Source: Isoetes taiwanensis
Taxonomy: Eukaryota; Streptophyta; Lycopodiopsida; Isoetales; Isoetaceae
Length of the DNA: 64,000 nucleotides
Assembly: GCA_021234155.1 (NCBI GenBank)
Contig: JAJEKV010000084.1
Span: 3,847,702 to 3,911,701, forward strand
Reading direction: 5' to 3'
Shown here: positions 14,049-15,376 of the stretch, piece after piece
Numbering within the stretch: position 1 is the first letter of the stretch
Layout: each line of letters starts with the position of its first letter
The notes under the pieces: generated by a model
What the model was told of the DNA's origin: nothing
Seen by the model: only the letters and a program-made list of their open reading frames with translations
Databases searched by the model: none
Translations under genes and position numbers: made by a program

Positions 14049-15376
14049 TTGCCTTCCTATCCCAAGCGCCCACTCAGCGCCCACCCAGCCATGATGGATG
14101 AACCCAAGCAAGTGTATAAGTGTCTGCCTCGCTATTCCCGATGCTCCATAGCTTCCTTGATGGCCGAACTTTTGCCACGCCCAAACCCATCGGCCGAAGC
14201 GGAAGCCAAAACCGAGGAGTTGTTGGAACACTTTGCTAAGCGCTTTTATGAAGGGGCTAAGATACCATACCCGCTCTTCTGCTACAATGAGCGCTTTGTA
14301 TAGCTTAACGCCATGCGGGAATCCTACACCGTAATTGAGGAAGCAGATGGCGTCCAGAATTACACACGGTTTTGTCCACCAGAAGGGGATGAGCAAGCTG
14401 AAGCCGAGGCCATACAGATGCAGGCCCATAAGATCCTACAAATGGCACAAGAAGCTGATCGACGATGGCTTGCAACTGACGACCCTGCTGCGCAAGCTCT
14501 AGGGTATCGTTATTTTGGAAATGGGATGTGTATCTTTAATGGTGGATCATATACCATCCCATCCTTTTCTTATGAGGAGGAAACTAATCGCATTATTTGG
14601 GAAGCCGGGTCGCCCCCATTTTTCACCGTCGGTTCCAAATGGGCCGTCGAAAGCAGATATCGTGCCAATCCCCATGGTATTTTCTGGAGCTTAAGCAACG
14701 AACGGACATTCGGATAGCCAGGGAGAAACGAGCAGAGGAGCAGACAACACTCCAGGCACAATCACAGAGGGCAACTCACTTGACAGAGGAAGCTGCTAAA
14801 CTTCGTGAAGATACCCTCCGTGCACAGCAAGCGGAACAGGAGCAAGCTCAGAAAAGAATGCAAGATGACGCAGAGCGGATAGCCAGAGAAGCAACCGAGT
14901 CAGTTAAGGAGCGGCTTAGGAAACAAGAGCAGGAACGGGACCGTCAAGACACGCCACCTCCGAGTAACCGTTTTTTCCGCCGAAAGCGAAAGAGTACGGC
15001 CAGTAAGTCGGGTGCTCAGTACAAGGATCAACTCAAGACTCGGGGTGGGGTCACTAAGGCTGCATGGGACAATCAGCGGGATGAAATCATCCGAAAGGCC
15101 CGGCATCCAAGGACAGCAGGGAAAACTATTCCCGGAGCCCTGCCGCAATCAAAGAGGAAGCATCGATACAAACCAGGTACGGTGGTACTGCGGGAGATAC
15201 GGAAGTACCAGAAGTCCACTAACTTTCTGCTACGCAAACTTCCTTTCCAACGCCTGGTCCGGGAGATCGCCCAAGAATATAAGACGGATCTGCGGTTTCA
15301 GGTACATGCAGTCCTGGTGCTTCAGGAAGCGGCCGAAGCTTATCTGGTGCAAACAAACAAAGAAAATATAATATAA
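14049..15376 (+). pseudogene. Retroelement ORF: coiled-coil protein fused to histone H3-like domain
   Basis: The N-terminal part reads from ATG 14,049 or 14,091 (MDEPKQVYKCLPRYSRCS), meets an in-frame TAG at 14,301, and continues to about 14,690. There a one-base shift moves to the frame that stays open to TAA at 15,374. That frame has an about 85-residue Glu/Gln/Arg/Ala-rich coiled coil ([11 protein letters not shown] to [14 protein letters not shown]), then a basic stretch ([14 protein letters not shown]). From 15,161 to 15,349 there are 63 codons aligning without gaps to histone H3 residues 39-101: [48 protein letters not shown]. Tyr41, Tyr78, His87 and Leu90 are the plant H3.3 states. RKST before it may be H3 R8-T11 with an expanded tail. 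The last part of helix 2, loop 2 and helix 3 are absent, replaced by QTNKENII. No intron is present. It is probably inactive in this copy. Confidence 0.8.

Follow-up and report, generated by a model that had tools for sequence, protein, structure and literature searches.

A histone H3 fold encoded by a family of Ty3-type LTR retrotransposons in the lycophyte Isoetes taiwanensis

The stretch of Isoetes taiwanensis DNA analysed here, 64,000 nucleotides long and called the window throughout, carries an LTR retrotransposon insertion with LTRs, a primer-binding-site-like sequence and a Ty3-type gag, all of them Ty3/gypsy features (Table 1). The LTRs differ by 39 mismatches in 1524 aligned bases (K2P 0.026), and the TG...CA ends of the 5' LTR would fall at positions 11861 and 13400. 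We take the TGGTATCAGAGC sequence at 13402 to be a match to plant initiator tRNA-Met. The 5' leader also contains an (AT)n microsatellite of 46 copies (13813-13902). A preliminary description of this DNA had the LTRs bounded by a target duplication; no target-site duplication of 5-7 bp was found in register at the LTR ends of the window, where only an out-of-register 5-mer is present. The gag of the window copy is cut at 19116/19117 and joined to a piece of LTR with no pol behind it, and the direct LTR-end piece followed by a short inverted piece (19117-19604) looks like a product of template switching during reverse transcription. Two accessory frames, B (split into two pieces) and C, are situated between the H3 frame described below and gag, at 15494-17530. 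For these two frames and for the N-terminal domain of the H3 frame no Pfam family passed its cut-off and nothing below E 0.1 was found in PDB, the best value for the N-terminal domain being 0.16. Part of the DNA of frame B is also present in all four other copies compared (L009, L010, L012 and L015).

Table 1. Features of the retrotransposon insertion, in positions of the window.
Feature	Position	Strand	Basis or remark
5' LTR	11862..13401	+	blastn against 19603-21128, 96.3% over 1542 columns
Primer-binding-site-like TGGTATCAGAGC	13402..13413	+	directly 3' of the 5' LTR
N-terminal domain, piece 1	14091..14300	+	resembles natural open frames of other copies, e.g. L090
N-terminal domain, piece 2	14304..14714	+	ends at the frameshift near 14690-14717; resembles the frames of other copies
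Long charged helix (coiled coil)	14693..14947	+	AlphaFold prediction, helix over residues 2-86 in the piece starting at 14690
Basic linker	14978..15160	+	alignment with other copies
Histone H3 residues 39-101 (alphaN, alpha1, loop 1, first half of alpha2)	15161..15349	+	Pfam, PDB, alignment
Deletion junction	15349..15351	+	286 bp of L009 (1343-1628), including H3 102-134 and the stop, absent
Codons QTNKENII and stop past the deletion junction	15350..15376	+	translation, comparison with L009
Accessory frame B, piece 1	15494..15913	+	open frame; no Pfam match; PDB best E 0.25
Accessory frame B, piece 2	16056..16889	+	open frame; no Pfam match
Accessory frame C	17015..17530	+	open frame; no Pfam match; PDB best E 0.27
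Gag, N-terminal piece	17776..18357	+	open frame; frameshift in the window copy
Gag, capsid and CCHC zinc knuckle	18281..19129	+	Ty3_capsid 8.5e-13, Retrotrans_gag 3.5e-11
LTR-end-like segment fused to truncated gag	19117..19526	+	96.6% to 12969-13376
Short inverted LTR piece ahead of the 3' LTR	19558..19604	-	LTR comparison
3' LTR	19603..21128	+	LTR comparison

The coding capacity of the family extends beyond that of the window copy. In L098, a locus downstream of the H3 copy L079, the same gag frame continues into an aspartyl protease and then an integrase core, which rules out a non-autonomous gag-only family of the TR-GAG type; no reverse transcriptase was found in this protease-integrase frame. 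Scans of IMG/VR with the H3 frame and with gag returned no relative (records of the window's own genome were possibly left out of them), and neither did protein searches with the coil/linker region and with gag at E 0.001.

Several other repeats are found elsewhere in the window. LINE-like remnants are situated at 7630-8346, 24990-25697, 47019-47936, 49351-50199 and 62274-63011; the frames at 7630 and 47019 match RVT_1 below its curated cut-off, the one at 49351 matches DUF4283, and the other two have no Pfam match. A direct repeat with 32-bp spacing is present in five copies at 2324-2522 and has a palindromic TATAAATTTATA core, while at 43614-44100 five imperfect repeats with inverted arms are clustered around a palindromic, TGCAAATGGCGCCATGGCGCCATTTGCA-like core. 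A foldback element (28416-28622 and 60549-60664) consists of two 93-nt arms at 86%, and a related copy lies at a distance of 32 kb.

The H3 part belongs to a frame which, in accordance with the preliminary description, is located between the primer-binding-site-like sequence and gag and on the same strand as gag. From 14588 to 15376 this frame is open over 262 codons, longer than any frame in 300 first-order shuffles of 14040-19129 (longest 214). Its start lies further upstream, near 14091. In the window copy the frame is interrupted by a TAG at 14301 and shifted near 14690-14717; its continuity across both was judged from other copies. The coiled coil of about 85 residues described ahead of the H3 part agrees with a predicted helix spanning residues 2-86 of the piece from 14690, with pLDDT of 78-97 by blocks of ten (AlphaFold, single sequence). 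As also described previously, 15161-15349 aligns without gaps to H3 residues 39-101 and includes the K56 site in YQKST. Its matches to Pfam Histone (E 1.6e-22) and to the H3.3 chain 7ux9_E in PDB (E 5.1e-31) rule out chance similarity. Nine of the 63 residues differ from 7ux9_E, 54 are identical with the best H3 among the fetched proteins and 55 with L048, an H3.3-type frame of the host that has Glu77. Three of the four residues previously listed as plant H3.3 marks, Tyr41, His87 and Leu90, are present as such, while Tyr78 is not such a mark among the fetched proteins: Phe78 occupies this position in all 238 H3 cores taken from 119 of the best 120 protein matches, and in L048. The basic stretch ahead of the fold in the window copy, proposed as a possible modified H3 tail, is not significantly similar to that tail, with shuffles scoring as high in 1812 of 5000 cases for 72 residues and in 535 of 5000 for the last 24. 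An AlphaFold prediction for the H3 piece from six rows had a mean pLDDT of 56, too weak for use. A neutral simulation from an assumed Arabidopsis-like ancestor and a post-insertion estimate, both made on the window H3, hinted at selection; both scored D77E as a change where host-type H3 has E77, and both are superseded by the analysis of the family given below.

The H3 fold of the window copy is incomplete because this copy lost 286 bp relative to L009, the copy most similar to it and our reference for the deletion. Nearly all other matches to 14700-15376 stop at query base 650, i.e. window position 15349, the last H3 codon. A search of the rest of the window element for H3 residues 102-135 found nothing (best score 29 against a shuffle mean of 31.5). 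All of the 39 other copies fetched, which are the best-scoring of 426 candidates, encode H3 past residue 101; the match extends to residue 133 or 134 in 38 of them, although a frameshift divides it in L029 and L042, and to residue 124 in L031. The earlier statement that no complete histone fold can form thus holds for the window copy, which ends at residue 101, and not for other copies, which encode H3 to residue 134. As judged from these comparisons, the window copy is a decayed derivative that lost the end of helix 2, helix 3 and pol.

Copies were sought in the host genome in two ways. Positions 14700-15376 of the window, used as a DNA query, found 40 places, its own among them (in 41 rows, as one copy is split in two), down to 81% identity, these being the best 40 of 426 first-look candidates; the 39 fetched copies all carry the same H3 at the same position in the frame. 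An H3 protein query gave 9103 first-look candidates in the 1.66-Gb assembly (1,658,258,908 bases in 1110 contigs), a figure to be read as a loose count, not as a copy number. All of the best 150 were confirmed as matches when scored, 15 of them host-type (97-99% identity) and 135 element-type. Among the element-type places, in a list whose ranking by H3 score favours good copies, eight matches are interrupted by a stop, and at 45 places the frame between stops is 400 aa or longer. The control query with H4 yielded 69 candidates, all of which were scored; 43 of them matched, 16 along the full length at 99-100%. H3 is amplified on a scale that is absent for H4, and the contrast is large. Frames of at least 380 aa that include H3 were counted in three groups: ten among the 39 DNA-selected copies, six among the 15 element loci L063-L077, and 20 in L078-L097, where every locus has one, these loci having been chosen for long frames. 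Of these 36 frames 30 remained after removal of duplicates, four of which fall short of the H3 C-terminus; the other 26, called intact copies, are the set used for the codon and residue analyses.

The intact frames demonstrate that the element family encodes a predicted protein of approximately 400-450 aa, in which a novel N-terminal domain is followed by a coil, then by a basic linker and finally by a complete H3 fold; its frame is situated between the 5' LTR and gag. The H3-derived module is accordingly a component of the element, as first described; it is fused to a coil and a basic linker, and it occurs in all 39 other DNA-selected copies. All 26 natural frames reach RRIRGE and so contain alphaN, alpha1, alpha2 and alpha3. 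The Pfam Histone profile is matched from 5 to 122 of its 122 positions in L079 (E 2.3e-41) and from 12 to 122 in L090 (E 3e-42). Two subfamilies can be distinguished by the H3 C-terminus, Q-type (n=8, the kin of the window copy) and A-type (n=18); both possess the N-terminal domain, the charged coil, the basic linker and the full H3 fold, and the N-terminal domain is 35-37% identical between them (8 pieces aligned). A QY[KR][DE][QK]L motif in the linker is present in all 26 intact copies, preceded by ARKS in 11, ARKT in two, PRKS in three, AHK[SA] in seven and other residues in three. In the 39 DNA-selected copies the linker motif reads STARKSGAQY in 23, occurs as a variant in 11 and was not found in five. 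There is a suggestive resemblance between the linker and the part of the H3 tail around K9, but it reaches significance at 5% in none of the 26 intact copies. Of the H3.3-type residues, Leu90 is present in all 26 intact copies, His87 in eight (Phe87 in the other 18) and Tyr41 in 16. Hallmarks of CENH3 are a lengthened loop 1 and a divergent alphaN; CENH3 identity is ruled out by the lack of any insertion relative to canonical H3 through loop 1.

The codon model, which assumes a single tree, gave omega values of 0.029 for the H3 fold (96 codons), 0.144 for the N-terminal domain (217) and 0.255 for the linker (61), estimates biased downwards by the origin of 20 of the 26 copies in the H3-ranked list, from which they were fetched for their long frames. 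For the H3 fold the log likelihood was -1940.3 compared to -2308.7 at omega 1, a cost of 368 log units (best of seven kappa values). Nei-Gojobori ratios of medians, calculated after pairs with saturated dS or with dS up to 0.03 had been dropped, were 0.036 in Q (28 of 28 pairs) and 0.020 in A (152 of 153) for H3 residues 39-134, 0.142 (28 of 28) and 0.102 (144 of 153) for the N-terminal domain with the coil, and 0.252 (28 of 28) and 0.242 (153 of 153) for the linker. Among 144 Q-A pairs none had a usable H3 value and seven had a usable value for the N-terminal domain. Between host H3 genes dN/dS was 0.032 (two of three pairs). The 39 DNA-selected copies lessen the bias towards long frames, yet they are the set nearest to the window; in 10 of them the H3 fold contains a stop, and in two a frameshift. 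For the 33 usable ones (at least 94 of 96 codons) the ratio of medians was 0.046 (524 of 528 pairs). Over bins of rising dS their dN/dS fell from 0.225 to 0.121, 0.083 and 0.042, and dN equalled or exceeded dS in none of the 502 binned pairs, which, like all pairs used for dN/dS here, are not mutually independent. Such falling dN/dS is the pattern of a gene that would be kept during element replication and decay after each insertion. These values demonstrate extreme purifying selection on the predicted H3 fold, almost as strict as that on a real histone, and neither of the two observations that the preliminary description named as refuting it, an isolated insertion or neutral decay in all copies, was made.

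At positions 86, 89, 105, 107 and 124 the host residue is found in none of the 26 intact copies, while Ile89, Ala107 and Leu124 are found in all of them. Since these five positions never carry the host residue and the derived residues are common to both subfamilies, the data point to one capture of a host H3, and to an old one. Synonymous sites are saturated between the subfamilies; the capture is therefore probably older than the split of Q and A. On the other hand, the end of gag has 88.8% DNA identity over 233 bp between window positions 18884-19116 (Q) and L098:3-235 (A). Such identity alongside saturated sites in the H3 frame suggests that 5' modules were exchanged between element backbones by recombination. 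Median dS also differs oddly between regions (H3 1.286 versus N-terminal domain 0.590 in Q, 0.710 versus 1.071 in A), which makes recombination likely, and the opposed order in the two subfamilies may reflect it. The absence of introns had been taken to fit capture from an mRNA. This argument carries little weight, since in the host, too, an H3.3-type frame is uninterrupted in at least one case, L048, which could itself be a retrocopy; all 15 host-type H3 genes listed (L048-L062) are in fact uninterrupted frames. Plant H3.3 genes can contain introns, as in switchgrass (PMC4940616). Because unspliced frames come first in the ranking of the genome search, host H3.3 genes with introns would be placed low or escape it, and consequently the lack of introns in the element cannot settle whether mRNA or DNA was captured.

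Residues of the H3 fold are not conserved evenly. At 65 of its 96 positions L048 and the 26 intact copies all share the same residue. The ten positions which we take to form the H3-H3' bundle or the face towards ASF1 are all invariant in 26 of 26 copies, and so are 13 of the 18 positions which we take to be DNA contacts; of the other five, position 45 departs from this through a gap in a single copy alone. Changes affect 2 of 15 positions in helix 1, 8 of 30 in helix 2, 3 of 12 in helix 3 and 1 of 5 in loop 2; alphaN, with 6 of 14 positions affected (three through the gap just mentioned), and residues 58-62, with 4 of 5, are less constant.

A possible course of events can be outlined from these observations. 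A lineage of Ty3-type LTR retrotransposons would once have captured a host H3 coding sequence. The presumed H3'- and ASF1-facing residues and most of the presumed DNA-contact residues having been kept, the protein would pair with host H4 and be handled as H3 by the host's H3 chaperones. The element H3 fold might in this way enter nucleosomes or H3-H4 complexes, and the coil and N-terminal domain would thereby be displayed on chromatin as cargo, most likely in order to package or tether element DNA or to hold element chromatin open. We consider it probable that the captured H3 is now an H3 variant encoded by the element and pairing with host H4. The more specific proposal, that the retrotransposon deposits this variant, with its ARKS-like and possibly mark-bearing linker and its element-specific N-terminal domain, on its own DNA or at integration sites, is tentative, and we would put its chances somewhat below even. 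Sequence does not tell entry into nucleosomes from mere binding of chaperones or H4. The effect could be the opening of chromatin, the tethering of the integration complex or the starving of host silencing.

The alternative that fares best is that the H3 fold acts outside nucleosomes as a decoy, sequestering histone chaperones or H4 and so weakening host silencing. The keeping of the residues assumed to face H3' and ASF1 is in accordance with it, and a large N-terminal fusion might hinder nucleosomes, but a pure decoy would not need the 13 of 18 presumed DNA-contact residues that are invariant, and we regard this explanation as rather unlikely. Slightly less likely still is an architectural accessory that binds DNA or RNA, in which linker and H3 fold would package element RNA or cDNA together with gag outside host chromatin; the position of the frame ahead of gag on the same strand, the basic linker and the coil speak for it, whereas the constraint is histone-like and includes the presumed protein-protein contacts. 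A passenger fragment of the host, neutral once captured, could explain the truncation, stop and frameshift of the window copy and the stops in the H3 fold of 10 of the 39 DNA-selected copies. It is very improbable, and for the family it is ruled out by the omega of 0.029 and by the drop of dN/dS with divergence; frames of at least 400 aa in 45 of the 135 scored element-type places of the H3-ranked list also speak against it, and it holds only for the decay of single inserted copies. An isolated H3 pseudogene landed in one element, which the window alone would fit with its 8 of 63 residues different from L048, is the least credible explanation of all, ruled out by the same H3 at the same place of the frame in the 39 other fetched copies and opposed by the lack of a comparable amplification of H4.

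An element-encoded H3 variant can be compared with several known systems. The fold is the same as that of host-type H3 (L048-L062), from which the element H3 is set apart by the five positions named above, by the lack of a clear H3 tail and by its location behind approximately 290-350 residues of element protein. The preliminary description knew of no precedent, which is correct for LTR retrotransposons as far as the literature found goes and not for transposable elements in general, since fungal hAT DNA transposons with captured H3 have been described, H3L in Pyrenophora (PMC3538342) and others in Pseudocercospora and relatives (PMC6710886). In these, as here, an H3 coding sequence was captured and amplified by a transposable element. 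ESTs of the Pyrenophora H3L exist and its authors state that it may have undergone drift (PMC3538342), while in Pseudocercospora fijiensis all H3 copies but the original were inactivated by RIP (PMC6710886). The fungal carriers are class II elements with a separate H3-like gene among several frames between inverted repeats; the Isoetes element is an LTR retrotransposon that encodes a fusion protein with a fold omega of 0.029. Orchids have Ty3/Gypsy elements with an ORF for an AlkB m6A demethylase (PMC9289625), likewise plant Ty3-type elements with a host-type domain fixed in an added frame; AlkB, however, is an enzyme acting on RNA and the Isoetes domain is a chromatin protein. The survey behind this finding, which covered 121 angiosperm genomes, lists 15 unusual domains; its section on them names no histone among those discussed, and its main text uses the word "histone" twice, for histone marks and histone demethylation (PMC9289625). 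The word is absent from the main text of a 2026 review of plant gene capture (PMC13317346) and from that of the Isoetes taiwanensis genome paper (PMC8566536), and no LTR retrotransposon with a histone was found in the open-licence literature searched. Chromoviruses, with their integrase chromodomain, are also Ty3-type elements that exploit chromatin; they read histone marks, while the Isoetes element encodes a histone. Viruses also encode histones, such as the H4 of bracoviruses and the histones of giant viruses, which are core histones, in part with an N-terminal extension. These are parasite-encoded core histones as here, carried by DNA viruses and not by an LTR retrotransposon. We know of no LTR retrotransposon among the carriers of parasite-encoded histones.

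Transposons are normally silenced through histones, and an H3 borne by a retrotransposon and held at an omega of about 0.03 would be a direct tool in the silencing conflict. The very many diverging copies of H3 would also be a natural experiment on the residues that a histone needs outside its host role, and whether mobile elements can place their own nucleosomes is a testable question. In practical terms, element copies can overwhelm counts of H3 genes in genomes of this kind. If the proposed role is true, a selfish element writes part of the nucleosome landscape of its host.
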